A stretch of 64,000 nucleotides of DNA, taken from assembly GCF_035083965.1 (NCBI RefSeq), contig NC_089725.1:25119925-25183924 (forward strand). The letters are read 5' to 3'. The stretch's first letter is position 1, and the number at the start of each line of letters is the position of its first letter. The notes beneath the pieces were generated by a model. It was not told where the DNA came from, did not search any database, and saw only the letters and a list, made by a program, of their open reading frames with translations. The stretch is from Branchiostoma lanceolatum (taxonomy: Eukaryota; Chordata; Leptocardii; Amphioxiformes; Branchiostomatidae). The position numbers were made by a program, and so were the translations under genes. Shown here piece after piece: positions 36,721-64,000 of this stretch.

Positions 36721-36724
36721 ACTC

Positions 36725-36862
36725 TAGTTCAGAATGTAGATATTGTTGTCGGTGTCAACCATTATCGCAGGGCACTAACGACATTGGAAATGCTGCTTCA
36801 GATACTAGCTAAAATCTGCCTGGTGTCAGGGCTGTTAGGTACAGGCAGTGGCTGATGTGACA
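36725..36862 (+). pseudogene. Relic of esterase B exon 1
   Basis: This segment copies the esterase B leader (compare 32170-32310). It includes 'ggtgtcaaccattatcgcag', a start codon followed by MLLQ-like codons and 'gcctggtgtcagggctgtta', but has a small internal deletion and then breaks off after 'gtggctgatgtgacaacac'. The next bases match the 5' flank of esterase A in reverse. No functional exon follows. Confidence 0.75.
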
Positions 36863-37265
36863 ACACACAACTAGGGTCAAGAGTCAGTGGGTTCAAAAGT
36901 CAGTCTGGTCAAAAGCTAACCTGAACTTGAATTAGCTGGGGGCCAGTTGGGAAGCTGCTTGAATTTCAGGGCCATCGCAGCCAAATGCCATAAGAACAGC
37001 TGACCGTGTGTGTCTGCAGAAGTGTTGCCTGAAGCTAGAGTGGCACTGTGAAAGAAGGTCATGGTTGATTCATGTTATTCGTAGGTTTGCACTACTGTTA
37101 CATGAGATATTTGCTAGCCCTTTGCACTGTCGGAATATTCGTGGGTAATGCATGTGGGTACAACAAATCTAACAAGCTCTAAACCTTTCCATAATCGCAG
37201 TTTGTTTGTTTACCATGCCTTATGTCGTCATCATTTCTCCCTGCATCTAGGCAAAGGGATCCGAC
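36863..37265. other. 5' flank of esterase C, shared with esterase A
   Basis: The block matches 29400-29790 in reverse, with landmarks 'cccaactggc', 'atttcagggccatcgcag', 'aatgccataagaacagctga', 'gtgggtacaacaaatctaac' and 'ctaaacctttccataatcgc'. Promoter elements shared by A and C would be here. Confidence 0.65.
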
Positions 37266-41261: not shown

Positions 41262-44200
41262 TTAATAATGTGAGAATACAGTGACGGTACTGCTTTGATA
41301 GCTTGCTACTACCAGCTGTCCACCCGGTGATACTGCGATGCTGTCAGCTCTGAACATGTCGGAAACGACGCGGCGAACGTACCGCCCGTCTTCTGTAAAC
41401 AGCTCCACCGTCCCGCCTGACCCGGTCGACACGAGAATATTCCCTGAACTGTCCGTACAGACACCTGAGACCTCTCCGGCCTGACCGTCACTGATGTCAC
41501 CAATTTTGTCACCCCCAAAGCTAAAAAGGTAGTGGCCAGTGTTGTCATAGACATACACGCGTGTACCCCCCATGTGGTCGGTAAAGAACAGGTTTCCCTC
41601 CCGTCCCACAGCGACCCGCCCGGGGGACTCCGGGCCCTGCCCCGTCCTAAACTTGCGAACGACCGTGCCATTGCTTACAAAAGAGAAGTCAAACCCTTCC
41701 CTAGTTATAGACAATTACATTTGTATAATTTAGATAAGCAGCTTTTATACCTATTTTGTACACTGTTCTTTTATGTATGTTATTTGCATTTAGCCTTCGG
41801 GCATGAATTTGCAATAAACTTATTAATTAAAATGCAGTAGCTTTACTTCGTCATAATCATCCCAGGACTCTGCCAATGAGGTTGACTCTACTAAAACAAC
41901 AAGACTACGAAGCGTGTCCACCGCCATGCACAACAAAGAACTGCTGTTGAGTGCTTCATAAAGTGTTGCTAGGAGACGTCCCGTTTTCGTATACCGAACA
42001 ATCAACCCTGTCCCCAAGTCATCATTCCCAAGCACCCACAGGTGACCCTCCCCGTCAATTGAAATATCTTCGGGTTCAATCATTCCGGAGTCCTCCCCTG
42101 ATACAATGGTTGGGAACTGGCGGAGGTACGCGCCCGTCATGTTGAAGACTTGAACTCGCCTGTTTAAATAGTCAGCTACAAATATCTCGTTGCTAGGAGA
42201 CACCACAACAGCGCTTGGGTCATCAAACTGGCCCACTTCTTCACCGAACACAATCTTCGATTGTTTGGACTCGTTACTTCCTTTCTCTGAGGATGATTAA
42301 GAGGGAGAAGGGGAAACATTGCTACTTCTGTAGATTACAGAGGACAAAATATTAAGTTTGAGTAAAAAAAACGTACACATTTTGTGTTTTCTATTGCATT
42401 TTGCGTTTAGCAGTACTTTAGCATCTTTGATGGAAATTGTAACATTGTGCACGTCATCAAAATCCATCATCTTGTGTGTATGAACAGGCAGGTGAGAAGT
42501 TCAATTCACGATCCATTCATGATAGAATTTGGAAGATATAACTTAAGAAAGAAAGTGATATCAGAAATAGCAGAGAGTGACATGATTGTGTCCACCTAGC
42601 CAACGTTATGGGTTTTAAACAAGTATCACCTTCAGTGCTGGTCTGCGGAGATGACGTATAGTCCATGTGTTGGGTTACGTCATCTGTGGTTTTACCAATG
42701 AAGGTGGGGTCTGTCCATGTCTGAGTTGGGCAAAGAACGAAATAGTCGTTTTGTAACACATAGGAAGGGATCATGCTAGAATTCACACCTAGAAAATGCG
42801 TGTTTGTTTTAAAAAAAATGTTTATGTTCAATACAACTTAATCGTCATTGAGATTAATAATATTGCTGATGTCGCTGTTTAGTTTTCTGGTGTAGCCGCA
42901 AATGAATAAGACAACTTACCGTTTGCACGGGACTGCCTTGCCTCCCTGACATGAAGGTCGCGATAATAAGAGCTGATAGAACCGTAATTATTGCCGCGGC
43001 CACACCCTTAGTGATGGCACCTGCCAGACACGTTCGAGATACAGCACACCTGTGACCTGTAAAATGAACCACATCGCCGCAGTATGCAAAATGATCTTCA
43101 GTTAAAGGTGCGAACACACACACACACACACAACCAAAAACAATTCCCTCGTCGGAGGTGAATCTCCTTCCTGGAGGGAATTTATAAAGCATTTTATAAA
43201 GTAAGTGTAACAGCGTGGAATTAAGACGTCGACAAAAGTTAGACTTCAAGGTAATGACATACACTAAATAGCAGTTACTCAGGCCACCGGCTATGGTTTT
43301 GCAAAACGTTCAAATTTGCGACCGTTTCCAAAAATCATATCCGGTTGCTTGAGTTACTGCTATTTGGAAGAAACTTAACTTATGTACCCTACCTCCTCCA
43401 GCCCTTGGTTGTACAGCATTTTGGGCGTACATAGGGTTGTGGCGTAATGCGTTCCCACTGTACATGGGGTTTGGGCGCAACGCGTTCCCACTGTACATGG
43501 GGTTGGAAAGTAATCCGTCCGCTTTATCGTCATCAGCCCCTGCAGGCCACATTTAAACAGATGAGAGGTACAAGATGCTTGTCGATTGTCTGTATATTGC
43601 CCCGTTGCCTTTTACGCCTCGATTCCTTAACAATCTGTATCTTTAGGAATTGAGTATGATAAAGGCTTTATATAACCATAAATGTCTTTCCTCAGTAAGC
43701 ATTCCCATTTGGCCTGTTACATTGAGAGAGACAGGTGTAATGGACTAAATAATGATTAAAAGATTTTTTCCGCTCGCGAATATCAAGATACTAATAATTC
43801 CAAACCTCTGAGGATGAAATAATCCGCGAAACAATACCCGATTCCTGTTTTTTTTCACACTAGCTTACATTACAAATGGATAGTAATCATTATCTTGTCA
43901 CTGTGGCAAAGTTAGCTTACCGGAGCTGGTGCCAGCTGCAGGTTGTCCATGGACGCTCTGCGAATGTCCATTCGGTGTTTGGTTCTCATAATGTTCATCC
44001 CGTTCGTCATAGGCAACGGCGTATGGTTGGACGTCTTGTTCACCGTTTGCTTCGCCATCTCGACAATAAGCAGTTGCATATGGACGGATACACTCATTGT
44101 CGGACACGGCTGAGTTTTCTGCTTTAGTCTGATCAAAGCTGTCAGCGTCCTTCGATTGTTTGATGATAGGCACTGGTCGAGTTTCATGCTGTTCGGCAAA

Positions 44201-45037
44201 GGCAATGGCGTACGGTTCGCCGTTTCTTTTGTCATCTCGGTGATAGGCAACTGCATACGGACGGATACACTCATCGTCAGACACAGCTGTCTTTTCCGCT
44301 TTGTTCTGATCACAGCTTTCAGCGTCCTTCGATTCTTTGGTGACAGTATTTGGTCGAGTTTCATCCTGGTTGACGTCTTGTGCTTTGCTGTTTGCATCAT
44401 GGACCTGGACATCTGGCCTGTCCAAAGAGGCATCATCGACATCTCCACCACGTAGGTACGCAGAGGCTGATGCTTCTTTACGAGAGGTGTCCTTCAGCTG
44501 GTATTGCACTACGTAATTGGCGTTACAACCTTTGGTATTGTAGATGTCTTTTGGCGGGGATTCTTCTTTCTCTACAAAGGGATTGTCAACGTAGATTGCC
44601 TTATTCCGTTCAACTTGTGTATTTGGAGTGCACACTGCTGGTAGCGAAGGCCTTTCATCGTAAAGTGTTTGATTCTGTTCAGTTTTGCTGATGTTTATGT
44701 AGGAAGTGCAGGCAGTCGATAATGAGGAACGTTCTTCGCCCTTGTCAGGGCTGCAGCCAAGTCCGTCATCTTTGTTAGAGTATTCAGTCGAAGCGTCGCT
44801 ATGGACGTCCCGCGACCGGTCTTCTGCGTGGCCGGATGAGATATCCTTCTGCTCTCCTGGATTGGTCGGGACCTGGTGCAGCTGGGGTTGCATGTCATGT
44901 TGATCCGCAGGCACTGTTGTAGAGTCAGAAGAGTCACGGATATGAGGCAGGTCTGATTGTGTGTCTTCCATGTTGTTGGGTACTTCATAGCCAGTATCGC
45001 TGGTAGAATCGTCATCTGTCTTGTTCATCGCATCCAT
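41262..45037 (-). CDS. Type II membrane NHL-repeat protein 1, interrupted
   Basis: Minus-strand exons: 43921-45037, 43393-43539, 42920-43056, 42630-42720 and 41262-42286. The first exon encodes a 372-residue acidic, Ser/Thr-rich tail with four PYAxA(Y/F) motifs and a YENQ motif. The second has three NPMY motifs in repeats like NPMYSGNALR. The third has a hydrophobic segment (AAAIITVLSALIIATF) preceded by basic residues, predicting N-in, C-out topology. The fourth is a Thr-rich linker. The fifth encodes NHL propeller blades with N-glycosylation sites. A 156-base insertion (41673-41828) splits the last exon after LLHFN and brings a stop (TAA, 41823-41825), leaving about 651 codons and under half of the propeller. 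Without the insertion the frame closes exactly at 786 codons. The rest of the propeller is still open downstream, so the break looks young. Confidence 0.85.
41673..41828 (+). mobile_element. 156-bp insertion, probable retrotransposon 3' end
   Basis: The two other intact NHL genes read continuously (gtgccattaaaatgc) where this copy has 156 extra bases. The insert ends, on the plus strand, with 'gcatgaatttgcaataaactt' and an AT-rich tail, which looks like the 3' end of a truncated LINE or SINE with a poly(A) signal. Short ATT direct repeats flank it. I cannot name the family. Confidence 0.7.
43113..43133. repeat. Short (CA)n in NHL gene intron
   Basis: About ten CA units lie in the intron between the NPMY and membrane-segment exons. 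The same spot carries about 34 units in the second NHL gene (49232-49301) and about eight in the third (55057-55072). Confidence 0.85.
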
Positions 45038-46320
45038 CAGTAGTCCGGGTCAGACCATACATCTACGCACTAGTAAATCTACAGTGCTTTCTATACGATC
45101 TTGTATCCTTTTGTAATCTTGTCCTTGCGGAAGGAGCCACTGGAAAGATGAAGACCGCACGAAAGACAGTCTGACTGTTTCGACTTTTGTAAAAATCTGC
45201 TATTGACATGTCCATGTTGGCGGAGTGATTAAAATTGGTGACCAGACAATTATTGTGCGGCATTTACAATCGGTTTGTCGTGGTGACGATCACGAAATTC
45301 CTATCAGTCTGGAAATGAAATATATGAAATGCTACAGACGTTATGGCTTACCCGTGACCCACATGATTGTACATTGATCAAAATGGGTCAGCAGACAATC
45401 ATTGTGTGGAATTTACAATATGTTTGTCTTGCTGGCAAAAAACTTCTATCAGTCTGGAAAGAAAATATCTGAAATGCTGCCAGGGCCTACCCTAGACGGT
45501 TCATTGATCAAAATTCACAATCTGGTCGTCCTGCTTGCAAATTAAAATTCCTATTATTCTATCTATCGATGAAATCTTACAACACAGAACGATCATATCA
45601 CACCCGAAAATCAATTAATTTACAAAGGTCCTGTAACTTCTTCATAAGTTTTGGAAAATGGACATGAAATTTGTGTAAATGATTGTATTTGTACACATTA
45701 CCCAAGACCGCAGTGGCGATGTAAAACCCACAATAGGATTACTATGCTGACTGTGGTCTTGATTAAAAGAGATGTGGTGAGATAAGGCATTACAATTCCT
45801 TTTCTGTGTCATTTCAAAAGGGCTGCTGTTTGGTTTGACTTTCAGTGTTGTATTGCATTCCTTATCATGGATTAACACTACTGCTAACAGAAAGGTCTGT
45901 CCTCCATTCGTAAACGTGCTGAAAGAAGATCATTACATCGAATAAGACTTAGTCGAGCTGTTACCTTTGGTGGTGTTTTCTTTAACTGTCAGTGTTTAAC
46001 TTACTATAGGTTAGCCCTACGGCATGCTCAGCATAGAAGTTGAAGCAATACCGGATGGATAGTTGGCAGTGATTAAGGGTGGAAAAAGTACCGTCATGGT
46101 ATTGATCTTATATTTCCTTTTATAGTTGAATGTGTTTTTTGGATGATGCTTGCTCCAGATTCAGCTCCAGATTATACCTACATACGTGCATACAACAAAC
46201 ATTGTCACATACGCTACCAGTTTATTTATGGAACATGAGCTAAATCTTCACATAGCAAGGACATGTCTATGACGATGTCCATGTATACATGCATTGTTGA
46301 CCTGTTAATGTCTATCAAAG
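45038..46320. other. 5' flank of NHL gene 1, repeated across the array
   Basis: This carries two to three imperfect copies of a block of roughly 110-130 bases (45229-45340, 45370-45480, weaker at 45503-45570) with 'gcagacaat.attgtgtgg.atttacaat' and 'tatcagtctggaaa'. The whole flank recurs upstream of NHL gene 2. No gene is seen apart from the orphan esterase exon at its far end. Confidence 0.6.
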
Positions 46321-46454
46321 ACACCCTGATGATGAGTCGGTCCTGCGACCCCGCTGCTTCAGACGCCCGTGCCGACAGCAAAGCTGTATTTTGGCTACTG
46401 CAACTGAGCCTTTATCATCTGGCTGGTGTGTACGTTTTCACTCTGCATGTCTAG
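46321..46454 (+). pseudogene. Orphan copy of esterase C last exon (1)
   Basis: The copy has 134 bases, exactly the length of the esterase C tail exon at 40254-40387, and is still open: DTLMMSRSCDPAASDARADS, a hydrophobic stretch, then TAG. The preceding acceptor has changed from TTACAG to TCAAAG, so splicing is doubtful. No other esterase exon accompanies it. It lies at the edge of the duplicated unit that carries NHL gene 2. Confidence 0.85.
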
Positions 46455-47538
46455 TTCTTTTCAGAAGAAGTAGCATGTACTAGGTACTAGGTAGGTAAGT
46501 AGGTTGCCTGTAGTGCATATTCATCAGTCGTGATTAACCACAGAGGACGCCAAGAGTTTTGCTTTACATTGGACATGGATGGTGAAAAGATATCTCGGGA
46601 GTCACAGAGAAAGAAATGCACAAACACCAAGCGAATTTTCAGTTATCATCTTTGTATTTTCATATATACAGAAGCATTCTTTGTCTCGTCAAAACGAATT
46701 TGTTAAATTCCTTTGAAGCAAAGTTCCCTGGGACTTCGCTCGCACATGGCGCGAAGGAAATAGCCTGTACTGCCTACTCGTCTGTGATGAATAGCGACGG
46801 AAGGATTTTTCTTTGCTTTGGACATACATCGATTTGGAATGTATATCTTCAGAAACATTAAGAAAGAATTGCACAAACACCTAGATTTTTCAAATAGTAA
46901 TTATTGTATTTGTATATACTGAAATATTCTTTGTCTATCGCTAACAAATATGTCAAATTCTTCTTTTACGTAGGAATTCCCGTTGGACTGTATTTACTTT
47001 GATGGCTCTGTGCTTGTCCACATTACGATGTACACATCACTATATATTCCTACGTTCTTTCGAATGTATTTGTATTGACAGCCTAGCTGTTATTTGTTCA
47101 CAGCACAAAACTATACATCAACCATACTGCTCAACCATACGGATGGGTCTACAGACACTAGATGGACAGAAACAATTACTTAAACTGATACATTGTGTGG
47201 ACTGGATATCAGGATCCACTGTAATAAACACATATTAATACATAAGACCAATTAGTATCTTTTCAATTGATAAACGGTGATGCTGTCTGACATTCATAGT
47301 TTATGAACTTATTATCCGTTAATCAAGTTAACATTATTTCCATGTGCCCATTAGGAAAGACGCATTGATGGTAGCTTTGATCCGCCATCCCAGGCTACAG
47401 TTACATGTTCAATATCCACAATCATTTGTCATTTCTTGAACCGAGGGAAATGACGAGAAGGGTCAGTGGGGGGGAGGATGGCTGCTTCTGGAACAAATGT
47501 CACACAGAACTCAGAAACATAAGTGTTAGTTTACTGGA
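46455..47538. other. 3' flank of the NHL gene 2 unit
   Basis: The region is related to 40388-41261 and 52758-53383, with extra sequence. No gene is supported. Confidence 0.45.
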
Positions 47539-49230
47539 TCAATAATGTGAGAATATAGTGACGGTGCTGTTTTCATAACTTGCTACTACCAGCTGCCCAC
47601 CCGGTGCTACTGCGATGCTGTCAGCCCGGAACATACCGGAAACGACGCGGCCAAAATACCGCCCGACTTTTGTAAAGAGGTCCACCGTCCCGCCTAACCC
47701 GTACGCCACGAGAATGTTCCCTGAACTGTCCGTACAGACTCCTGAGACCTCTTCAGCCTGACCGTCGTCGATTTCTGTCTGACCCTCACCAATTTTGTCA
47801 CCTACCAAACTGAAAAGGTAGTGGCCAGTGTTGTTATAGACATACACGCGTGTACCCCCCATGTGGTCGGTAAAGAACAGGTTTCCTTCCCGTCCCACAG
47901 CGACCCGTCCGGGGGACTGCGGGCCCTGCCCCGTCCTAAACTTACGAACGACCGTGCCATTAAAATGCAGTAGCTTTACTTGCCCATACTCAAAGTTCCC
48001 CCATGCATCTTTCCACGACTCCGTTACTACGACAATATCACGAAGTGTGTCCACCGCCATGCCCAACAAAGAACTGTTGGACAATGTTGCCTGAAATGTT
48101 GTTAGAAGACGTCCCACTTTCGTATACCGAACGATAAACCCTGCCCAAGAGTCATCATCCCCAAGCACCCACAGGTGACCCTCCCCGTCAATGGAAACTT
48201 CATTGGGTTCGATCGTCCCGGAGTCGTCCTCTGATACAATGGTTGGGAAATGGCGGAGGTACGCGCCCGTCATGTTGAAGACTTGAACTCGCCTGTTTGA
48301 AAAGTCAGCTACAAATATCTCATTGTCAGGGGACACCACAACAGCGCTTGGGTCGGAAAACTGGCCAACTTCTTCTCCTTCTTTTCCGAAGACAATTTTC
48401 GACTGTTTGGGCTCGCTATTTTCTTTCTCTGAGGAGGATAAAGAAGAAGAAACATTGCTACATCAGCAGATTACTTCAAGACAAAATATTGTGTTTGATT
48501 TAAAAAAAAAAACTTTTACATCATGCATCGTTTTCTGTTACGATTTTTTTACGAATGCTATCGTTAATGAAAATTGCAACATTATGCACGTTATGAATAC
48601 GTATTTGTGTGTATGACCAAGCAATTGAGAATTAGCATTTGGCAACTAAAGATTTAAAAAGAGACAGTGCATGAATCTATCTGGTTAGTTCACTGTTCAG
48701 GGACATTTCAGAGTGAAATGATTGTATCCACCGCCAGCTTAATGGGTATTAAAGAAGTATCACCTTCAGTGCTGGTCTGCGGAGATGACGTGTAGTCCAT
48801 GTGTTGGGTTACGGCATCTGTGGTTTTACCTATGAAGGTGGGGTCTGTCCATGCCTGAGTTGGACAAAGAACGAAAGGGTCGTCCAGAAACACGGGAAGG
48901 GAACATGGTAGAATTCACAGCTAAAAAAACGCGTTTTGGTTTCAAAAAATGTTTATGTCCAATGCTACGTAATCGTCATTGAGAGATGCCTCTGATTTAT
49001 TTATTTAATGTAGCCGGAGGTCAAGACGACAATTTACCGTTTCCATCTGACTGCCTTGCCTCTCTGAAATGAAGATCGCGATAATAAGAGCTGATAGAAC
49101 CGTCAGTATTGCCACGACCACGCCATTAGTGATGACACATGCCAGACACGTTCGAGATACAACACACTTGTGACCTGTAAAATGAACAACATCGCCAAAG
49201 TATACAAAATGATCTTCAGTTATAGGTGCG

Positions 49231-49301
<71 letters not shown>

Positions 49302-51347
49302 CCAAAAACAATACCCTCGTCTGCGGTGAACCTCCTTCCCGGAGGTAATCATTTTATAAAGCAAGTGTAACAACGTGGAAGAACCTCAAGGCGTCGATGA
49401 AGGTTATACATCCAGGGAATGAGACACGCTCATCATCATCATACCTTGTCGCTGTTTCTCTACGCCCGGTCCCGGCAGTGCAGTTTCGTTGGCTTCTGGA
49501 AGGTCCATGTCTGTGCAAGTGGGTGAAAGTCTGCAGCTGTGCATCAGATGTTGTTGGGCTTGGGGGTCTTCACCACAGCTGCAGGATGTACTGTTGGTCT
49601 TCCCCCACCGTATGAGATACGCTAAAGAGCAGTTACTCTAGCAACTGGGTATGGTTTTGGAAAACGTTCAAAGCTGCGACCGTTTCCGAAAATCATCTCC
49701 AGTTTTTTGAGTAACTGCTACTAATATTTGGAAGAATCTTAATCTATAAGAATATAGCATACCTCCACCTGCCCTTGGTTGTACAGCATTTGGGGCGTAC
49801 ATGGGGTTGTGACGTAATGCGTCCCCACTGTACATGGGGTTTGGACGCAGCGCGTTCCCCTGGTTGGGACGTAAGCCGTCCATTTTGCCGCCACCAGCCT
49901 CTGCAGAACACATTTAAACTCTTGTAGCTTCAATTCCTCAACAAGGTGCATCTTTGAGTATGAACTAGTAAAGGCTTTATATAACCATGAATATGTCTTC
50001 CCTCAGTTAGCATTCCTCTGTGGCCTGTTGAGGAGAGCAGGTGATATGGACTAAAAGACAAAATCATTGAAACATTTTTTCCGCTCGCAAATATCCCAAA
50101 CCTGTGAGGATGAAATTATTCACTTTAACAATTCCCGATTCATCATTCAATCTTTCTCCCCACTACATTAGTGGTGGGTATTAATCATCATCTTGTCACT
50201 GTGACAAAGTTTACATACCGGAGCTGGTGCCAGCTGCAGGTTTTCCACGGACGCTCCGGGTATTGTTGACAGAATGTCCAGTCGGTGTTTGGTTCTCATA
50301 ATGTTCATCCTGTTCGTCATAAGCAACGGCGTATGGTTGGACGTCTTGTTCGCCGTTTGCTTCGCCATCTTGGCAATAAGCAGCTGCATATGGACGGATA
50401 CACTCATCGTCTGACACGGCTGAGTTTTCTCCTATGTTCTGATCAGAGCTACCAGCGTCCTTCGATTGCTCGATGACAGGCTCTAGTCGAGTTTCGTCCT
50501 CTTCGTCATAGGCAATGGCGTACGGTTCGCCGTTTCTTTTGCCATCTCGTTGATAAGCAATTGCATACGGACGGATACACTCATCGTCAGACACTGCTGT
50601 GCTTTCTGCGTTGTTCTGATCACAGCTTTCAGCGTCCTTCGATTCTTTGGTGACAGTCTTTGGTCGAGTTTCATCCTGGTTGACGTCTTGTGCTTTGCTG
50701 TCTGCATCATGGACCTGGACATCTGGCCTGTCCACACTGGCAACATCGACGTCTCCACCGCACTGGTAAGCAGTGGCTGATGCTTTTTTACGAGAGGTGT
50801 CCTTCAGATGGTATTGCGCTACGTTATTTGTGTTACAACCTTTGGTATTGTAGATGTCTTTTGGCGGGGATTCTTCTTTCTCTACAAAGGGATTGTCAAC
50901 GTAAATTGCCTTATTCTGTTCAAGTTGTGTATTTGCAGTGCCAACTGCTGGTAGCGAAGGCCTTTCATCGTAAAGCGTTTGATTCTGTTCAGTTTTGCTG
51001 ATGTTTATGTAGGAAGTGCAGACAGTCGGTAGTGAGGAACGTTCTTCGCCCTTGTCAGGGCTGCAGCCAGGTCCGTCATCTTTGTCAGAGTATTCAGTCG
51101 AAGCGTCGCTATGGACGTCCCGCGATGGGTCTTCCGCGTGGCCGGGTGAGATATCCTTCTGCTCTCCTAGATTGGTCGGGACCTGGTGCAGCTGGGGTTG
51201 CATGTCATATCCATCCGCAGGCTCTGTTGTAGAGTCAGAGGAGTCGCGGATATGAGGCAGGTCTGATTGTGTGGCTTCCATGTTGTTGGGTACTTCATAG
51301 CCAGTATCGCTGGTAGAATCGTCATCTGTCTTGTTCATCGCATCCAT
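47539..51347 (-). CDS. Type II membrane NHL-repeat protein 2, intact
   Basis: Minus-strand exons 50219-51347, 49763-49900, 49038-49174, 48764-48854 and 47539-48428 join to 794 codons plus stop. Residues 1-422 are the predicted cytosolic tail, with four PYAxAY motifs (for example IRPYAIAYQRDG and VQPYAVAYDEQD), a YENQ motif of the kind bound by Grb2-type SH2 domains, and two NPMY motifs; a third has become RPNQGN. The membrane segment is about 436-458 (VVVAILTVLSALIIAIF). A Thr-rich linker follows. Residues 499-794 form six NHL blades, with landmarks EIFVADFSNRRVQVFNMTG, GHLWVLGDDD, NLFFTDHMGGTRVYVY and a closing VASYENSTVTIFSHY. N-glycosylation sequons support an outside location. NHL propellers bind proteins or RNA; here a surface protein-binding role is likelier. 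Ligand and partners are unknown. Confidence 0.9.
49232..49301. repeat. Expanded (AC)n microsatellite
   Basis: About 34 AC units lie in the intron before the membrane-segment exon of NHL gene 2. The tract is expanded relative to the same intron of copies 1 and 3. Confidence 0.95.
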
Positions 51348-52623
51348 CAGTAGTCCGAGTCAGACCATATATCTACGAACTAGTAAATCTACAGTGCTTT
51401 CTATACGATCTTGTATCCTTTTGTAAACTTGTCCTTGTGTGAAAGGAGCCACTGGAAAGATGAAGACCGCACGAAAGACAGTCTGACTGTTTCGACTTTT
51501 GTAAAATTCCGCTATTGACATGCCCTGTTGGCGGAGTAATGGGTGAGCAGACAATTATTGTGCGGCATTTACAATCTGTTTGTCGTGGTGACGATCACGA
51601 AATTCCTATCAGTCTGGAAATGAAATATATGAAATGCTACAGACGTTATGGTTTACCCTCGACCCACATGATTGTACATTGATCAAAATGGGTCAGCAGA
51701 CAATCATTGTGTGGAATTTACAATATGTTTGTCTTGCTGGCAAAAAACTTCTATCAGTCTGGAAAGAAAATATCTGAAATTCTGCCAGAGCCTACCCTAG
51801 ACGGTTCATTGATCAAAATTCACAATCTGATCGTCCTGCTTACAAATTAGAATTCCTTTTATTCTATCTATCGATAAAATCTTATAACACAGATTGATCA
51901 TATCACACCCGAAAATCAATTAATTTACAAAGGTCCTGTGACTTCTTCATGAGTTTTGGAAAATGGACATGAAATTCGTTTAAGTGATTGTATTTGTACA
52001 CATTACCCAAGAACGCAGTGATTTGAGGCGATGTAAAACCCACAATAGGATTACTATTCTGAGTGTGGTCTTGATTGATAGAGATGTGGTGAAATAAGGC
52101 ATTACAATTCCATGTCTGTGTCATTTCAAGAGGGTTGGTGTTTGGTTTGACTTTCAGTTTTGTATTGCATTCCTTATTATGGATTAACTGCTAGCAGAAA
52201 GGTCTGTCCTCCATTCGTAAACGTGCAGAAAGAAGGTCATTACATCGAATAAGACTTAGTCGAGCTGATACCATTGGTGGTGTTTTCTTTAACTGTCAGT
52301 GTATTACTTACTATAGGTTAGCCCTACGGCATGCTCAGCATAGAAGTTGAAGCAGTACCGGATGGATAGTTGGCAGTGATTAAGGGTGAAAAAAACACCG
52401 ACATGATATTGATCTTATATTTCCTTTTGTAGTTGAATGTGTTTTTTGGATGATGCTAGCTCCAGATTCAGCTCGGATTATACCTACATACGTGAATACA
52501 AACATTGTCACATACACTACCAGTTTCGTTACGGAACATGAGCTAAATCTTCACATAGCAAGGGCATGTCTATGACGATGTCCATGTATACATGCATTGT
52601 TGACCTGTTAATGTCTATTACAG
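51348..52623. other. 5' flank of NHL gene 2
   Basis: This is a close copy of 45038-46320. The upstream repeat blocks are at about 51535-51645 and 51675-51785. No gene is present before the orphan esterase exon. Confidence 0.6.
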
Positions 52624-52757
52624 ATGCCCTGATGATGCGTCGGTCCTACGACCCCGCTGCTTCAGACGCCCGTACCGACAGCAAAGCTGTATTTTGGCTA
52701 CTGCAGTTGAGCCTTTATAATATGGTTACTGAGTACTTCTTTACTCTGTATGTCTAG
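52624..52757 (+). pseudogene. Orphan copy of esterase C last exon (2)
   Basis: A second exact-length (134-base) open copy of the esterase tail exon, with DALMMRRSYDPAASDARTDS and a hydrophobic stretch ending in TAG. Its acceptor TATTACAG is intact. The cysteine before the tail has become tyrosine. It lies between NHL genes 2 and 3. Confidence 0.85.
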
Positions 52758-53383
52758 TTCTTTTCAAAAGAAGTAGCATGTACTAGGGACTAGGTAGGTA
52801 AGTAGGTTGCCTAGTGCCAAACCTTCATATCAAGCATACTACATAAAATCCGCACATATATGGATAAGTCTTAAGACGCTTCATAGACAGAAACGATTAC
52901 TTTAACTGCTACATTGTGTGGATGGGATATCAAGATTGACCATCATAGACGCACTTTGATATATAACAACCAGTATTTTTTTAAACTGCTTTACAGTTAT
53001 ACATATATTAACAAACAACTTGTCATCATTACTATCAGATTATTTCCATGCACGTGTCCATTGGGAAAGATACATTGACAGTAGCTTTGATGTACATGCA
53101 TGAAATCACAGGCGACAGATACTCCTGTCATCTCTTCATTCGAGGGAAATGGGTCATCTCCAACCAGATCTAACGGCTGCAAATACCATTCACCAACTGG
53201 CAAAAGAAGTCGCAATAAAAACTCCTTTTGCCAGTTGGATACGGTCTTTGCAACCGTTAGATCTGCTTGGAGATTAGGAAATGGGTAAAAACAAGAAGAG
53301 TCAGTTGGAGAAGGATGGCTCCTTCTATATCAGGAGCTAACGTCACGCAGAGCTTACACCAGCAAAAACAAATATTTGGTGAA
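52758..53383. other. 3' flank of NHL gene 3 with a small hairpin
   Basis: No gene is seen. An imperfect inverted repeat at 53158-53208 and 53225-53274 pairs 'ccagatctaacggctgcaaa' with 'tttgcaaccgttagatctg'. The right arm alone occurs at 41065-41120 in the first unit. Confidence 0.6.
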
Positions 53384-56300
53384 TCAGTATTGTGAGAATA
53401 TAGTAACCGTACTGTTTTGAGAATCTGCTACTACTAGCTGCCAATCCGTTGCTACTGCGATGCTGTCAGCTCTGAACATGCCGGAAACGACGCGGCGAAC
53501 GTACCGTCCGTCTTCTGTAAACAGCTCCACCGTCCCGCCTGACCCGGTAGACACGAGAACGTTTCCTGAACTGTCCATACGGACATCTGCGACCTCTTTG
53601 GGCTGACCGTAATCGATTTCTGTCTGACCCTCACCAATTTTGTCACCCCCAAAACTGAAAAGGTAGTGGCCAGTGTTGTTAAAGACATACACACGTGTAC
53701 CCTCCAAGTGGTCGGAAAAGAACAGGTTTCCCTCCCGTCCCACAGCGACCCGTCCGGGAAGATCCGGGCCCTGCGCACGCTGCGTCCTAAACTTGCGAAC
53801 CACCGTGCCATTAAAATGCAAAAGCTTTACTTCTTCATACTTCTCCCAGGACTCTGCCAATATGACAAGATTACGAAGTGTGTCCACCGCCATGCATAAC
53901 ATAGAACTGTTGGAGAATGTTACCTGAAATGTTATTAGATGACGTCCCATTTTCGTATAGCGAACGATAAACCCTGCCAAAAAGGCATCATCCCCGAGCA
54001 CCCACAGATGACTATCTCCGTCGATAGAAATGTCATCGGGTTCAATCATTCCGGAATCTTCCCCCGACACGATGGTCGAGAAATGGCGGAGGTACGCGCC
54101 CGTCATGTTGAAGACTTGAACTCGCCTGTTGTAGGTGTCAGCTATAAATATCTCGTTGCTAGGAGACACCACAATTGCGCTTGGGTAGAAAAACTGGCCA
54201 ACTTCTTCTCCTTCTTTACCGAAGACAATCCTCGATTGTTTGAGCTCGTTATTCACTTTCTCTGAGAAAGATTGAGAGAAAAAAGGAAAACCATTGCTAC
54301 TTCAGCAGATTACTTGAAGGCAAAACATCTAGTCAGAGTTTTTTTTTTTTTTAAACGTACACATTTTATGTTTTCTCTTGCATGTTACGTTAATTTTAGC
54401 AGTACTATCGTTGATGGAAATTGTAACATTATACACGTCATCAAAATCCATCGCCTTGTGTGTATAAACAGGCAGGTGAGAATTTCAATTCACGATCCAT
54501 TCAACAGTGATATCAGAATAGTGAAATGATTGTGTGCACCTAGCCAACGCTATGGGTATTAAAGAAACATCACCTTCAGTGCTGGTCTGCGGAGATGACG
54601 TATTGTCCATGTGTTGGGTTACGTCATCTGTGGTTTTACCTATGAAGGTGGGGTCTGTCCATTCCTGAGTTGGGCAAAGAACGAAAGGGTCGTTCAGAAA
54701 CACCCAGGAAGGGAACATGATAGAATTCACACCTAGAAAATGCGTGTTTGTTTCAAAAAATGCTTATGTCGAATATTACTTAATCGCTATAAAGAGTAGC
54801 AATATTGCCGATGCCTCCGATTTGTTTTCTGATGTAGCCGGAGGTCAAGAAGACAATTTACCGTTTCCATCTGAGTGCCTTGCTTCAGTGACATGAAAGT
54901 CGCAATGATAAGAGCTGATAGAACCGCCAGTATTGCCACGACCACGCCCATAGTGATGACACATGCCAGACACGTTCGAGATACAGCACACTTGTGACCT
55001 GTAGAATGAACCACATCACCACAGTATACAAAATGATCTTCAGTTATAGGTGCGAACACACACACACACAACCAAAAAAATACCCTCGTCTCCGGTGAAC
55101 CTCCTTCCCGGAGGTTATCATTTTATAAAGCAAGTGTAACAACGCGGAAGAACCTTAAGACGTCGATAAAGGTTAGACATCCAGGCAATGCGATACGCTA
55201 AATAGCAGTTACTGAAATAACTGGATATGATTTTGGGAAACGTTCAAAGGTGCGACCGTTTTGCAAAATCGTAGCCAGTTGCTTGAGTAACTGCTATTTG
55301 GAAGAACCTTAATTTATGTACCCTACCTCCTCCTGCCCTTGGTTGTACAGCATTTGGGGCGTACATGGGGTTGTGACGTAATGCGTTCCCACTGTACATG
55401 GGGTTGGAAAGTAGTCCGTCCACTTTGTCATCACCAGCCTCTGCAGAACACATTCAAACAGAGGAGAGGTACAAGATGCATGTCGATTGTCTGCACATTG
55501 CCCCTTTCCTTTGTCGCTTCGATTCCTTAACAATCTGTATCTTTAAAATTGAGTATGATTAAGGCTTTTCACAACCATAAATGTCTTCTATCAGAAAGCA
55601 TTCCTCTGTGGCATATTTCAGAGAGCAGGTGTAATGGACTAAAGCACAAAATGATTGACAGATTTTTTTCTGCTCGCAAATATCCAGACAGTAATAATCC
55701 CAAACCTGTGAGGATGAAATAATCTGCCTTGATAGTGTCCCGGTTAATCATCGAAACAATTCCCGATTCCTGATTTTTTTTCCCACACTAACATTAGATT
55801 ACAAATGGATAGTAATCATTATCTTGTCACTGTGACAAAGTTAATTAACTTACCGGAGCTGGTGCCAGCTGCAGGTCGTCCACGGACGCTCTGTGTTTTG
55901 TTCTCATAATGTTCATCCCGTTCGTCATAAGCAAAGGCGTACGGTTGGACGACTTGTTCGCCGTTTGCTTCGCCATCTCGACAATAAGCAATTGCATACG
56001 GTCGGATATACTCATCGTCTGACACGGTTGTGTTTTCTTCTTCGGTTTGATCAGAGATTTCAGCGTCTCTAGATTGTTTGATTGCGGTCTCTGGTCGAGT
56101 CCCATCCTGGTCAACGTCTTCTGCTTTGCTTTTTGCATCATCATGGCCCTGGACATCTGCTCTGTTGATACTGGCATCATCGACATCTCCACCGCATTGG
56201 TAAGCAGTGGTTGATGCTTCTTTGCGACAGGTATCCTCCAGCTGGTATTGTACTACGTTATCGGCGTTACAAGCTTTAGTATTGTAAATGTCTTCTGGTG

Positions 56301-56802
56301 GTGATTCTTCTGCTTCTACAAATGGGTTTTCAACGTAAAGTTCCTGATTCTTTTCAGCTAAGTCTGCTGCTTGGCCGACGTGTGTATATGAAGTGCACAC
56401 TGCTGGTAGCGAAGGCTTGTCAACGATAAGTGTTTGATTATGTTCAGTTTTTTCTATGTTTATATGGGAAGTGCAGATTGTCGATAGCGAGGAACGTTCT
56501 GCGCGGTTGTAAGGGTTCATGCCAGGTTCTTCATCCCCTTCAGAGTATTCGACCGAAGCGGCTGTAAGCACGTCCCGCGACGGGTCTTCCGCGTGGCCGG
56601 GTGCTATATCATCCTGCTCTTTTAGATTATTCGGGATCCAATAGAGCTGGAGTTGGGTGTCATGTTGATCCACAGGCACTGTTGTAGGGTCAGAAGCCAC
56701 ACGGATGTGAGGCAGATCTGCTTGTGTAGATCCCATGTTGTCGGGTATTTCTAAACCGGTACCGCTGGCAGAATCGTCAACTGTCTTGTTCATTGCGTCC
56801 AT
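53384..56802 (-). CDS. Type II membrane NHL-repeat protein 3, intact, short tail
   Basis: Minus-strand exons 55854-56802, 55327-55440, 54862-54998, 54574-54664 and 53384-54261 join to 722 codons plus stop. The plan is that of copy 2, but the cytosolic tail is about 60 residues shorter: one module with two PYAxAY motifs is missing (only IRPYAIAYCRDG and VQPYAFAYDERD remain). The second exon is also shorter, with two NPMY motifs. The membrane segment is about 367-389. Residues 431-722 form the full six-bladed NHL propeller, with AADTYNRR-type blade motifs (EIFIADTYNRRVQVF), NLFFSDHLEGTRVYVF and a C-terminal VTIFSQY. Copies 2 and 3 are the functional candidates of the array. Confidence 0.9.
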
Positions 56803-57330
56803 CAGTTGCCTGAGTCAGACCATGCATCTACACATCAGTACATCTAGATCTACAATTTCGTCTTTCTATACGATCCTTTATCCGTCTAGTCTTATCTTGT
56901 GAAAGTAGCTACTGAAACATTGACGACTGCACGAAAATCAGTCTGACTGTTTTGACTGCTGTACGACGTTGAGAAATGCTGCTATGACTTACTCTTGACC
57001 ACTCCGTATTGGTTGAGTGATCAAGATGAGTGAGCAGACAATTATTGTGTGGCATTTACAATCGGTTTGTCGTGGTAACGACCACGAAATTCTTATCAGT
57101 CTGGAAAGGAGATACATGAAATGCTACTGACGTTTTTGGTTATCTTTGACCCACATAATTTTACATTGATCAAAATGGGTCAGCAGACAATCATTGTGTG
57201 GAATTTACAATCTGTCTGTCGTACTGACAAAATTTCTATTGGTCTGGAAAGAAAATATCTGAAATGCTGCTATGGCAAATCTGTACCATTCAGCTGATTT
57301 TTCAGCAAGTAGTAGTAGTAAAAGTATATA
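56803..57330. other. 5' flank of NHL gene 3
   Basis: This carries the same upstream repeat blocks as the other copies (about 57015-57125 and 57165-57270), including 'cagcagacaatcattgtgtg'. No gene. Confidence 0.6.
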
Positions 57331-57566
57331 GTGGGGTCGTGTGACGTAGCGACAGGGTTTTCGGGCCAGAGCCCAGCGGTCCCGGGTTCGAATCCCCTGA
57401 CGCCACCGATCTTGTGCCCTTGGGAAAATGGCACTTTACACGACTTTCTTCACTCCAGCTAAGTGTAAAAATAGGGTAAATTATGTGTGTGGGTCACGAC
57501 ATCAGCAATAGCTGCCACGTGTATTGCACTGTGGCAATTCTAATGAAATCAGAATCAAATCAAATA
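57331..57566 (+). mobile_element. tRNA-derived SINE
   Basis: The head (57331-57407) resembles a tRNA gene: an A-box-like 'tgacgtagcgaca', a perfect B box GGTTCGAATCC (57385-57395), and an end CTGACGCCACC that can pair with the start. It continues without a break into a non-tRNA body ('cttgtgcccttgggaaaatggcactttacacg...') and an A-rich tail (AATCAAATCAAAT). That layout is a SINE rather than a working tRNA gene. Confidence 0.75.
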
Positions 57567-57939
57567 TGCAGTTCCGTTTTTATGGTTTTCTTTGTCACTG
57601 CCCATGTGAACTGTTCGTTTGTCAAGAAGCGTAAGATAAAACTCCGTGAGCTAAAACAAGCATAACAAGAGTCTTAGGACCCAAAATCTCCATGAAACTT
57701 TTTTTTGTATTAAACCAGTTCCCCCCATTCTATATCGCTCAATGGTATGACCCCCGGCCACCCGCAGCTGTCGGGGGCTCAGGTTCCACAGTGACCTACT
57801 TTCGCTATCAACACTAACAGCTGTTAGAAGTGCCACAATGGCCAACACTGCAAATATAAATTTTCCCATTACTTAGGCAAATTAAGTCCAATTTGCATAA
57901 TTTGCACTTCATTGTATACATCCCTCTCTAAGCTACCTG
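57567..57939. other. Stretch without a supported gene
   Basis: A minus-strand frame at 57651-57869 starts with MGKFIFAVLAIVALLTAVSV, which looks like a signal peptide, and runs for 72 codons. Without further exons or homology I leave it unassigned. Confidence 0.4.
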
Positions 57940-58800
57940 CCAAGTAAATAACATGAAAATCTGTCGCTCCTTTCTTCAGTTATTCTCCTTTGAAGATTTT
58001 GACAAATACGCCATTACAGTTCCAGTGACACATACCAGAGGGCCCAAAATCGACCTTGACCTTTCTCCTCCCCACACCTACCCACATAATAAATATCATT
58101 ACAATTCATCTACACGTTCTATAGTTATGCTGATTTTACGCATCCGGTGACACATACATACACACACGGTGACACATTCATACACACACGCGCACACACA
58201 CGCAAACACACTAACTTTGCGTGATTTGCACTTCAGTGTGTACATCTCTGTCCAACCTACCTGCGTACCAAATAACATGAAAATCTGTTGTTCCTTTCTT
58301 CAGTTATTCCCCTTTAGAACATTTTTACAAATAGGCCATTGCAGTTCCAGGGACACAAACCAGGGGGCCCAAAATCGACCTTGACCATTCTCCTCCCAGC
58401 GCATACCCACATACCAAATATCATTACAATCCATCTACACGTTCTACAGTTATGCTGACTTTAAGCATCCGACGACACACATGCAAACGATTTACCTCCT
58501 AACTTATGCAAATTCGGTCTCATTTGCATAGTTTGCACTTAAGTGTGTACAACTTGGTCTAACCTACCTGTGTACCAAAGAACATGACGATCTGTCGATC
58601 CACTCTTCAGTTCTTCTACATTGAAGATTTTAACAAATACGCCATTGCAGTTCCAGTCACACATGCCAGGAAGCCCAAAATCGACCTTGACCTTCCTCCA
58701 CCTGACACCCACCCACATACCAAAAATCATTTCAATCCATGTACAGGTTCTACAGTTATGGCGACTTTAAGCGTCCGGTGACACAAACATACACACAGAC
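57940..58800. repeat. Three tandem inverted copies of the dispersed repeat
   Basis: Three units of about 310 bases (about 57940-58150, 58250-58480, 58550-58800) each carry 'aacatgaaaatctgtcg.tcc', 'caaatacgccatt.cagttcca', 'ggcccaaaatcgaccttgacc' and 'cccacata..aaatatcatt'. They are the reverse complement of the family at 2898-4140. Confidence 0.75.
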
Positions 58801-59007
58801 ACCAAACGCAAGCAAAACAGTATCTCATGAAAAAGCCTTTTTTCATGGAGATAATAAAGATTATCAAAAAGTTCGATGATAGGTAATTAATGGCAAACCT
58901 AATTAATTGTGGTGCTTTCAGCTGACTAAATTTCAGTGAATATTGCAGTCCTGTTTCAACACGTTTAAGAATAGGAACGATTCTGATCAATATACCAATA
59001 CAAGTAA

Positions 59008-59205
59008 TGCTTCTGTCCCATTTCCAACGCTGGGCCCGGCCGGGTAGCTTGTGGGAACGAAAAATATGATATAAAATACAACAAAAGACTCAAAACGTGA
59101 AGAAATTACTCCTAACCATATATAGTGTATTTCCTTGATATGCATTTTTTTTTCGTTTGCGGAAACAGCCCGGCCGGGCCCCGGGTTGGAAATGAGACAG
59201 TCGCA
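59008..59205. mobile_element. MITE copy 3 (GGGGCCCGGCCGGGC family)
   Basis: This 198-base element has inverted ends (TGCTTCTGTC...GCA) and TAA on both sides (59005-59007, 59206-59208). The internal 'gatataaaatacaacaaaag' matches copies 1 and 2. Confidence 0.85.
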
Positions 59206-59208
59206 TAA

Positions 59209-59700
59209 GCCATAGTATCATTTCAGATATTTTCTTTCCAGACTGATAGGAATTTTGTGATCGTCAGCACGACAAACCGATTGTAAATTCCACATAATAA
59301 TTGTCTGCTCGCCTATTTTGATCAATGCACCAATACGGAAAAGGGTTACGAGTAGTGCTAGGGTCACATTTCCAAGCCGGGGCCCGGCCGGGCAGTTTGC
59401 CGGAACGAAAAGTACGACATAACAAAAGACATAAGCCTAAAACTGGTTATTCATAAGCATGATCTGTGTATATTTCTTGATATGAATTTTTATTTTACGT
59501 TCCGTCAAACAGCCGGGCCCCGGCATGGATATGTGACCCTAGCATAAGTCATAGCAGTATTTCAGAATTTTTTTCTGTCCAGACTAACAGGAATGTGGTC
59601 AGCACGACAAATCGATTGTAAATTCCACACAATGATTGTCTGCTAACCCACATATATTGAACACTCCATACCAGCATTTCACAAAATATTCTACTGGCCT
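59209..59700. repeat. Inverted NHL upstream repeat blocks, 5' flank of copy 4
   Basis: Two blocks (about 59215-59335 and 59555-59665) are the reverse complement of the blocks upstream of NHL genes 1-3 ('gactgataggaatttt', 'attgtaaattccaca.aat.attgtctgc'). They are separated by MITE copy 4. This shows copy 4 was duplicated together with its upstream DNA. Confidence 0.7.
59356..59544. mobile_element. MITE copy 4 (GGGGCCCGGCCGGGC family)
   Basis: This 189-base element runs from TGCTAGGGTCACATTTCC to ...GTGACCCTAGCA, flanked by TAG on the left and TAA on the right. It lies only about 150 bases from copy 3, inside the 5' flank of NHL copy 4. Confidence 0.85.
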
Positions 59701-59825
59701 TCGTGCGGTCGATCGTCACCTTTTCCATAACTTCTTTTTTACAAAATCTAAATAGACAAAAGATTGTGGGTCGTATTGGGAGACGAAAGTGTAGTGATGT
59801 GTGGATGTATGATCTGACCCTACTG

Positions 59826-62455
59826 ATGGACGCGATGAACAATGACGATTCTGACAGCGGCGCCAGTGATGAGATACCCGACAATATGGAGTCCACACAA
59901 GCAGATCTGCCTCATATCCATGGCCCTTCTGTGGATCAACATGACACCCAACCCCAGCTCCATTGGATCTCGACGACTCCAGAAAAGCAGAAGGATATCT
60001 CTTCCGGCCACGTTCAAAGCGACGCTTCCGTCGGGTACTTTGACCAAGACGCCGGACGTGGCTGTAACCCAGACAACAGAGCAGAACGTTCCTCGCTACC
60101 GGCTGTCTGCACTTCCTGTATAAACATCAGCAAAACTGACCAGAATCAAGCACTTTACGGTGAAAGGTATTCTCCACCGACAGTGTGCACTTCATGTACA
60201 CAAGTCGATCAAGCAGAACAAAATCAAACACTGTACGTGGACAATCGATCTGTAGAAACAGAAGAATCACCACCAGAAGACTTCTACGATACTAAAGCTT
60301 GTAACGCAGATAACGTAGTACAATACCAGCTGACGGATACCTGTCGTAACGAAGCATCAGCCACTGTGTACCAATGCGGTGGAGATGTCGATGATGCCAG
60401 CGTGAACAGGCCAGATGTCCAGGTCCATGTTGGAAAAAGCAAAGCCCAAGACGTTGACCAGGATGGAACTCGACCAGAGACTGCAATCAAACAATACAAA
60501 GCGCTGAAAGCTGTGGTCAGAACAAAGCAGAAAACTCAGCTGTGTCAGACGATGAGCGTATCCGTCCGTATGCAGTTGCTTATCAACGAGATGGCAAAAC
60601 AAACGGCGAACCATACGCCGTTGCCTTTGATGAACAGGATGGACCTCGACCAGAGCCTATTATCAAGCAATCGAAGGACGCTAAAAGCCCTGATCAGAAC
60701 AAAGAGGAAAACACAGCCGTGCCCGACGATGAGTATATCCGTCCATATGCAGCTGCTTATTGCGGAGATGGCGAAACAAACGGCGACCCGCAAGACGTTC
60801 AACCCTACGCCGTTGCTCATGACGAACAGGATGAACATCATGAGAACCAAACACCGACTGAACATTCTATCCGTGGACAACCTGCACCTGGCACCAGCTC
60901 CGGTAAGCTACATGTAACCTCATCACAGTGACAAGATAATGAGTACTGTCCACTTCTACTGCGGTTTGGAATATTAATAGAAAATCATTTTAATTGGGAT
61001 TGTTTCGATAGATAACTGGGACACCATCAAAGCGAATTATTTCATCCTCACAGGTTTGGGATTATTACTGTCTGGATACTTTCTAGCCGAAAAAAATCTT
61101 ATAATTAGTTACAATCATTATATATTAGTTTATATCACCTGCTATGTCACTATTTGTAAAAGGCGTGTAGTAATGTTAATGACTAATCGATAACTACAGT
61201 AATGTTGACTGAGAGAAGATATGTTTATGATTATCCAAAGCCTTTACTATAGTTCATACTCAGGTTCATAGATGCAGTTTAAGCTTGTTCAGGCATTGAC
61301 GCGACAGGATCTAGGAGGAAAATGGCAATATCAAGACAATCGACATCTTGTACCTTTGTTTGAATGCGTTCTGCAGAGACTGCTGACGACAAAGCGGACG
61401 GACTACTTTCCAACCCCATGTACCAGGGGAACGCGCTACGCTCAAACCCCATGTACCGTGGGAACGCGTTACGCTCCAACCCCATGTACGCCCAAAATGC
61501 TGTACAACCAAGGGCAGGAGGAGGTAAGGTTCATTCCTATGAATTAAGGTTCTTCCACTTTGATACACTTCCTTTATTAATTCATTACCTCCGGGAAGGA
61601 GGTTCAACTCAGACGGAGGGTATTGCATTTGGTTGTATATGTTTTTTGCACCAAGACCTGAAGATCTTTTTGAAGGATTTGAATAAATCTTGGTACGTAG
61701 GTAGTTATTGAGGTGCGATTTGGGGCCCCTCTGCAGATACTATAGCTTTACAGGGCAACACCCCCTTCCTAAAAGGAATGTGGTGTAGTTCATGGACAGC
61801 AGGTCAGCCGACTGCCTAGAATGGGGACGACGAATGACCCCTTATGGGAAGGAGATAGCTGGGATAAAGGAGGGGTAGAATAAGGGACGAAGGAAATGGA
61901 AGGATAACTTACATCTGTGATGGCTAGGGCGACGCATCAAGAAATTTCAAAAACTCTAAATATTTCACAGAGATATAGTAGACATTTGATTTCTTGTTGT
62001 GGTGATGTGATTTGAAATGGTTTTTTTACAGGTCACGGGTGCGTTGAATCTCGAACTTGTCTGGTCAATGCCATCACTAAGGGCGTGGTCGTGGCAATAA
62101 TTACGGTTCTATCAGCTCTCATCATCGCGACCTTCATGTCAGGGAAGCAAGACAGGAACGTGCAAACGGTAAATTGTCTTCCTGATTTCCGGCTACATCA
62201 CAAAACTAATCAGAGGCATCAGCAATATTGTTACTCTTGATGGCGATTTAGTAATATTACACATAGACATTTTTGAAGCAAACAAGCATTTTCAAGTAGT
62301 GAATTGTAACATGTTCTCTTTCTTTGTGTTTCTAAACGACCCTTTCGTTCTTTGCCTTACTCAGACATGGACGGACCCCACCTTCACAGGTAAAACCACA
62401 GATGACGTAACCCAACACGTGGACTACACGACATCTCCGCAGACCAGCACTGAAG
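59826..62455 (+). pseudogene. NHL type II membrane protein copy 4, frameshifted, no propeller
   Basis: Exons 59826-60902, 61377-61523, 62032-62168 and 62365-62455 match the first four exons of the other copies, in opposite orientation. The second exon has three NPMY motifs; the third has the membrane segment (VVVAIITVLSALIIATF). Exon 1 loses one base near 60500 relative to its paralogues. The correct frame (CIRPYAVAY type, here DDERIRPYAVAYQRDG) resumes in another phase, and the exon length (1077) is one short of the phase the donor needs. The shifted frame happens to stay open to the exon end. The donor after exon 4 (GGTGAT) is kept, but no NHL exon follows; the next DNA ends in Penelope-like fragments. 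It is therefore a truncated inverted copy, most likely dead, unless a membrane-anchored tail alone is made. Confidence 0.82.
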
Positions 62456-62825: not shown

Positions 62826-63256
62826 TTACAGCCGTTCATCCCAGCACGTTCCAACTGGATCGATGTGGACTGCCTCTTTGATCTTTCTGTGGACCTTACG
62901 TGATCCGTGGTCTATGATTTCGATAATGTTCGGGATAGGGCCATCAGTGACTCTATGGCTCGCTTGGAGTTCATGTTGACTGAGCGCGGATTTACCGTCC
63001 TGACGGTCTATGGACTTTTGATGTTCATCAGTCCGTTCACCTAAGGATCTTTCTGTTTCCCCTTCATACACCTCGCCACACTGTTCATACGATATTTTAT
63101 AGATGACACCACACTTCTCACTGGGTAATAACGGGTCTTCGGGGCTAACAAGGGTATTCGGTAGAGTATATCCAGGTTTGGAAAATAGGCGTACGTTATG
63201 TTTGTCGTACGCACGTTTGAGTCTCTGAGACAGACACCTTTTATGTAGGGCAGTAT
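62826..63256 (-). mobile_element. Penelope-like element fragment, GIY-YIG end
   Basis: On the minus strand, across small frame changes, the DNA encodes the C-terminal part of a Penelope-like element: KRCLSQRLKRAYDKHNVRLF, then a GIY-YIG-type core (CGVIYKISYEQCGEVY, GETERSLGER), then HINX-like KIKEAVHIDPVGT. The reverse transcriptase part is missing from this fragment. It meets a second, oppositely oriented fragment at about 63257. Confidence 0.78.
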
Positions 63257-64000
63257 GATGGGCTCCCCATTGTCCCCAGTACTAGCCAACTTATTTATGG
63301 AAGAGTTTGAACGAAAAGCTCTGGACACTGCCCCCACCGTCCCACGTTTTTTGGTTGACACGTAGATGGCACCGGAAAGTGAACCAGCGTGAACATGAAC
63401 AAGAACTCCTTGAGCATATCAACAACCAACATGACAGCATGAAGTTTACCATTGAGGGGGAAGAGGACAGTCACCTCCCTATGCTGGACGTCATGGTGAT
63501 TAGGAATCCTGACAACTCCATCACTACAGATGAGTTCCGCGAAGAGACCCACATCGACCACTATTTACAGTGGTCCTCTAACCACCCGCCCCACCAAAAA
63601 TTAGGCATAGGAAGAACACTTATGCACAGAGCGAACACCCTCATAGAAGACCACACCCTGAGAGCAACAGAGAAGGAAAAGGTAAGAGACGCACTCCGAC
63701 ACTGCGGCTACCCGGAAAGGGCGCTGAAAGAGGGAGACACCAAAACAAGGAGCGACACCCTGCGAGTTATGCCGTACTGTCCTAACGTTACATGAAAAGT
63801 GTTTCTGAGAGACTCAAACGTGCGTGCGCCAAACACAACGTTAGCCTGTTTTCCAAACCTGGATATACTCTACGCAATGCCGTTGTTAGCCCCGAAGACC
63901 CGTTATTACCCGTAGTGTGGTGTCATCTATAAAATATCGTATGAACAGTATAGTGAGGTGTATGTAACGTTAGGGGAAACAGAGAGATCCTTAGGTGAAC
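63257..64000 (+). mobile_element. Penelope-like element fragment, reverse transcriptase plus GIY-YIG start
   Basis: The plus strand starts inside the reverse transcriptase at GSPLSPVLANLFMEEFE, has a stop in place of the catalytic Asp-Asp region (RFLVDT then TAG, where VDDT is usual), and continues in another frame with HEQELLEHINNQHDSMKFT, PMLDVMVIRNPD, HIDHYLQWSSNHPPHQK and LRHCGYPERAL. It then reaches the linker (SVSERLKRACAKHNVSLF) and the beginning of GIY-YIG (ETERSLGE) at the window edge. The copy is broken and cut off by the window. Confidence 0.82.

Follow-up and report, generated by a model that had tools for sequence, protein, structure and literature searches.

A gene array in amphioxus predicted to encode type II membrane proteins with an NHL propeller outside and a tyrosine-motif tail inside

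Several described proteins carry a propeller outside the cell. Teneurins are single-pass type II proteins, with an N-terminal intracellular domain and an NHL propeller on the outside, according to portions of two papers (PMC5851990, PMC6297184). Similarly, part of a third (PMC5566180) describes APMAP as a glycosylated type II protein, where an N-terminal anchor is joined to a six-bladed extracellular propeller. Going by the titles of structure matches, bacterial PknD also has an NHL-type propeller as its extracellular domain; the N terminus of this protein is a cytosolic kinase. Here, we analyse four copies of one gene, labelled A to D, at approximately 41-62 kb of a 64-kb stretch of the Branchiostoma lanceolatum genome (contig NC_089725.1, positions 25,119,925 to 25,183,924, hereafter 'the window'). 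The original prediction, for this locus, was a family of surface receptors joining an NHL propeller to a tail with tyrosine motifs. It took NHL propellers to be usually intracellular, or part of secreted enzymes, and missed teneurins, APMAP and PknD. The best reading of the array is indeed a predicted family of type II surface proteins with the propeller outside. On balance, we take copies B and C to be genes for single-pass type II receptors of the plasma membrane, in which a TRIM-type propeller faces outward; A and D may once have been such genes. The family would be lineage-specific. This view draws on a five-exon gene model (four exons in D), one transmembrane (TM) segment and a C-terminal six-bladed TRIM-type NHL propeller, all deduced from the DNA.

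Exon structure and integrity of the copies

Copies A, B and C lie on the minus strand (45037-41262, 51347-47539 and 56802-53384, respectively) and copy D on the plus strand (59826-62455). In all four, exons for a long acidic tail, NPMY motifs, the TM segment and a Thr/Ser-rich linker follow one another in this order. A single NHL-coding exon comes after the linker exon in A, B and C. Copies B and C are intact. Briefly, B encodes 794 amino acids, open over 2385 bases, and C encodes 722, open over 2169 bases; GT/AG sites are present, and phases match, at all introns of both. In copy B, exon 1 (50219..51347) starts with MDAMNK and encodes the acidic, predicted cytosolic, tail, with YINI, NPF, four PYAxAY motifs and YENQ. 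Exon 2 (49763..49900) carries NPMY twice, plus a degenerate third unit, and exon 3 (49038..49174) encodes juxtamembrane Cys and basic residues and the TM segment. The linker (48764..48854) and an intact NHL propeller (47539..48428) complete the gene. Copy C has a shorter tail with two PYAxAY motifs (55854..56802), two NPMY motifs (55327..55440), the TM segment (54862..54998), the linker (54574..54664) and an intact propeller (53384..54261), the structure of which was modelled. The open frames, of 305-382 amino acids, are far longer than the maximum of 145-200 in base shuffles (300 shuffles each).

The other two copies are damaged. Copy A has exons for the tail (43921..45037), three NPMY motifs (43393..43539), the TM segment (42920..43056) and the linker (42630..42720). 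Its NHL exon (41262..42286) is split mid-way by a stop-rich insert of approximately 150 bases (41670-41824), which has no second copy elsewhere in the window. In copy D, the tail exon (59826..60902) is frameshifted. Exons for three NPMY motifs (61377..61523), the TM segment (62032..62168) and the linker (62365..62455) follow, and tblastn detects no NHL match in the remainder of the window. Similarity between copy D and intron 4 of the other copies stops at about 62607, and an NHL exon may lie past the window end. Open frames at 62826-63795, where this exon would be expected, resemble a Penelope-type retroelement, with GIY-YIG-like letters; no Pfam family scores above cutoff there. The original prediction had the complete order, from tail to six NHL blades, in four copies. 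The exon order, as far as the linker, is right for all of them but, because the propeller exon of A is interrupted and D has none in the window, four propellers is too strong a claim. No further convincing copy was found in the window using the B and C proteins (tblastn; remaining matches have E values of 1.7 or worse).

Transcription of the NHL exon separately from the exons for tail and TM segment had been named as grounds for rejecting the original prediction. Exon phase, and an NHL exon with no start codon of its own, argue against this in A, B and C. The phase at the end of the linker exon is the one needed by the NHL exon, and the acceptor fits. Upstream of the NHL exon, its frame extends by only 4 (A), 12 (B) or 14 (C) residues before a stop, split codon included, with no Met. 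The first in-frame Met is residue 49 in A, and 52 in both B and C, falling within the first blade of the copy C model. Hence, a separate NHL gene would begin inside the propeller. Two genes per copy, one for the tail and TM segment that ends after the linker exon, and one for the NHL part, would fit with confinement of the latter to a single exon. Read-through into intron 4 would then yield short C-termini, of 37 (A), 18 (B) and 29 (C) amino acids. With neither start codon, nor acceptor and phase, in its favour in any of the three copies, we consider this arrangement very improbable. We conclude that the predicted exons very probably belong to one transcript.

We compared nonsynonymous and synonymous divergence (pN/pS) for pairs of A, B and C; note that these pairs are not independent. 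For the NHL exon, pN/pS is 0.46 for B-C (P 5e-6), 0.54 for A-C (P 0.0007) and 0.67 for A-B (P 0.04). Equivalent values for the tail are 0.60 (P 0.0009), 0.63 (P 0.004) and 0.63 (P 0.05). It is conceivable that the array is mostly decayed, consisting of duplicated pseudogenes of a functional family located elsewhere. The state of A and D and the moderate constraint on the tail would suit such an origin, as would the finding of no polyadenylation signal in the 1200 bases that follow each of A, B and C. Conversely, B and C have remained open over their entire length and, in the B-C comparison, synonymous divergence significantly exceeds nonsynonymous in both tail and NHL exons. We consider a mostly decayed array unlikely; B and C are probably a functional gene pair within a partly decayed array. 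Separately, a stretch of approximately 100 bases occurs twice upstream of each copy (45226-45478, 51538-51783, 57018-57268 and 59214-59650). The eight stretches align with a mean column identity of 75%, and could be a promoter or 5' leader.

Membrane topology and the propeller

Copies A, B and C have an in-frame stop five codons ahead of MDAM; the nearest 30 codons in D contain no such stop. Hence, the A, B and C proteins most simply start at MDAM, with no hydrophobic N terminus, in agreement with the proposed lack of a signal peptide. Copies B and C have a single TM segment, and no other 19-residue window exceeds 1.4. Next to this segment, in both proteins, net charge is +2 on the N-terminal side and -2 or -1 on the C-terminal side. 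Taken together, the absence of a signal peptide, the one hydrophobic segment and the charge balance, interpreted with the established positive-inside rule, predict a type II topology. The N-terminal tail would then be in the cytosol and the propeller outside. Sequons for N-glycosylation were also part of the original prediction. The propellers of B and C hold five apiece, which is above composition shuffles (P 0.019 and 0.013, respectively). In the copy C propeller, three of the five are in c-d turns, with one in a d-a loop and one in a b-c loop. Note that the predicted cytosolic parts also hold sequons, five in B and four in C, at chance level (P 0.35 and 0.31). Hence, while the motifs are there, they are weak evidence for topology and only lean toward type II.

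The propeller is of the TRIM type. NHL repeats are above the Pfam cutoff (20 bits) in the NHL exons of B (54.1) and C (39.9), and in two pieces of the copy A exon (31.4 and 21.8). The SGL propeller family also exceeds its cutoff (26.3 bits), beside NHL, in B (29.7) and C (37.3). For these two exons, the strictosidine-synthase-type Pfam family is not listed at E values up to 1; SSL_N appears in one NHL piece of copy A, at E 0.076, under its cutoff. The copy C model has six blades, and its best fold matches are TRIM-NHL propellers, among them those of Brat, TRIM2 and TRIM71. In sequence, the best PDB matches are TRIM71 for B (1.2e-30) and Thin for C (8.5e-33). Teneurin is absent among the 50 matches listed in each of two fold searches, and may rank lower; the sequence match of teneurin-2 to B is weak (E 0.03-0.22). 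Pattern searches for NHL relatives in viral contigs gave six matches, none of which was confirmed.

Differences between A, B and C are unevenly placed on the propeller. Using the conventional names for propeller faces, 37 of 76 top-face loop positions differ, compared to 12 of 53 on the bottom face (P 0.003). Top loops also have a codon-level excess in the C-A comparison (1.16, P 0.007 versus the rest). We regard diversification of the top face as a lead, short of demonstration. In our reading, the loops on this face would bind a ligand outside the cell.

The tyrosine-motif tail and its possible roles

In a six-frame scan of the whole window, NPMY occurs 10 times (three in A, two in B, two in C and three in D) and PYAxA[YFH] 14 times (four, four, two and four, respectively). 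All matches are on the coding strand of the four copies and none is elsewhere. The NPMY motifs are 24 (B) and 35 (C) residues ahead of the TM region, on the predicted cytosolic side. In A and D, the NPMY exon contains tandem units of 33 bases; in B and D, tandem units of 177 bases lie in the tail. The tripeptide NPF, which is linked to EH domains, occurs in three of the tails (A, B and C). In other receptors, connections between NPxY or tyrosine motifs and adaptors (PTB, clathrin adaptors, SH2) are established. Here, NPMY motifs would recruit PTB-domain or clathrin adaptors, leading to endocytosis, and tail tyrosine motifs, if phosphorylated, could recruit SH2 or PTB proteins. As originally proposed, NPMY and PYAxAY are present in all four copies. 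Of the 13 gap-free columns with tail tyrosines, 10 show no change; the corresponding figure for all remaining residues is 190 of 295 (Fisher P 0.55). Hence, special constraint on them is unsupported. Of the original receptor claim, the type II layout with the propeller outside is retained; short motifs suggest possible phosphotyrosine signalling.

An alternative is that the tail serves mainly as an endocytic or adaptor scaffold. The proteins, with the same architecture, would be scavenger-like receptors internalised via NPMY, and would not signal through phosphotyrosine. Consistent with this role for the tail, NPMY units sit between tail and TM segment in every copy, NPF is available in three, and the long tail shows no special conservation of its tyrosines. 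Furthermore, of all exon pairs, the A-C comparison of the NPMY exon gives the lowest pN/pS (0.15, P 0.004); for the same exon, A-B (0.41) and B-C (0.37) are not significant. Endocytosis alone leaves unexplained why PYAxAY is kept in all four copies, partly in the 177-base units of B and D. We rate the scaffold a serious contender, at slightly under an even chance.

The gene itself probably originated when an N-terminal set of tail and TM exons was joined to a TRIM-type NHL propeller encoded by one exon, with a phase-1 intron at the junction. Tandem duplication would have enlarged the family; the number of tail motifs changed, one copy switched orientation and two were damaged. A bolder, and rather doubtful, proposal is that tail and TM segment form a self-contained, lineage-specific signalling cassette. 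This would have been shuffled, by phase-1 introns, onto various ectodomains. In the present case, a TRIM-type NHL propeller would have moved from cytosol to surface, its top-face loops diversifying as a recognition surface. The proposal stems from similar tails that, we assume, exist on other ectodomains in cephalochordates, and these would make the tail itself less novel. Gene content, and a likeness of the PYAxAY/NPMY tail to predicted lancelet proteins, fit the cephalochordate source of the DNA. Pfam gives no family above cutoff for three of the tails (A, B and C) or for exons 2-4 of B and C, and linker exons have no Pfam match. Likewise, the copy B tail has no PDB sequence match at E values up to 1. 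Pattern matches to the tail in prokaryote (19) and viral (3) contigs were not confirmed; since these collections are viral and prokaryotic, they are uninformative on other animals.

Several points weigh against B and C encoding such receptors. Two of the four copies in the array, A and D, are damaged. The clade of TRIM-type propellers is known mainly from intracellular proteins. In both B and C there is one Cys after the TM segment and, hence, no disulfide within the propeller. Two of five AlphaFold models are poor (predicted local distance difference test score, pLDDT, of 42). The TM exon shows no sign of constraint (pN/pS 1.2-2.7 for three pairs, none significant), in addition to the tyrosine counts above; the linker exon gave no significant pN/pS result. 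Finally, propeller loops and strands do not differ significantly overall (P 0.12), and the codon excess in top loops fails for C-B (0.41, P 0.85), so holds only for C-A, where A is damaged.

Neighbouring genes and known systems

Elsewhere in the window are three carboxylesterase genes (COesterase; 26794-39507). Two of these, inverted relative to each other, are 94.6% identical over 1.3 kb (26794-28113 versus 34316-33002). A perfect tandem repeat of GTAGA, with 23.8 copies, is at 28644-28762. Exons for CUB, kringle and trypsin domains, on both strands between 8389 and 22045, suggest multidomain serine-protease genes, and a fragment of an XendoU endoribonuclease is at 4815-5087 (E 1e-13).

The original prediction did not recognise this family as described. 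None of the matches listed in our literature searches, judged by title and the start of the abstract, concerns an NHL receptor with such a tail; in two cases, the listed matches were 20 of 361 and 20 of 55. Searches for 'amphioxus' with NPMY, and for PYAVAY, PYAVRY or PYAIAY, gave zero matches, which is weak evidence since motif letters are seldom printed. The term NHL is absent from the main text of PMC2575513 and PMC12373286, and does not occur as a whole word in PMC9238270. PMC3503706 and PMC3160408 cover TRIM and malin genes, amphioxus included, and the parts of them consulted contain nothing of this architecture. Hence, the pairing of a TRIM-type NHL propeller with this tail was not found described, and it is this pairing that appears new; type II proteins with an outside propeller are known and each half of the protein resembles known things. 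If our interpretation is correct, a kind of propeller found in intracellular E3 ligases has been re-used as a receptor head, by joining to tail and TM exons. The locus is of interest mainly because exon shuffling has probably brought a TRIM-type propeller to the cell surface. It would be a simple example of how a receptor is born, open to testing, and the tyrosine-motif tail of this receptor is uncharacterised.

Compared with TRIM-NHL proteins (TRIM71, TRIM2/3, Brat, Thin and Mei-P26), the likeness is in propeller sequence and fold. Unlike those proteins, the A, B and C tails yield no RING or B-box in Pfam; there is a TM segment instead, and the propeller is predicted to be outside. The type II single-pass layout of teneurins is also the one predicted here, from the start, TM segment and charges. 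In B and C, 48 residues separate the TM segment from the propeller, which is directly followed by a stop, so that EGF repeats, FN-plug and YD shell could not be accommodated. APMAP is a type II protein with a six-bladed propeller outside, as predicted here; its propeller is strictosidine-synthase-like and it is not known to have an NPMY/PYAxAY tail. The likeness to PknD is the NHL-type propeller used as an extracellular domain. Finally, NPMY near the TM segment, on the predicted cytosolic side, is reminiscent of NPxY receptors bound by PTB proteins.
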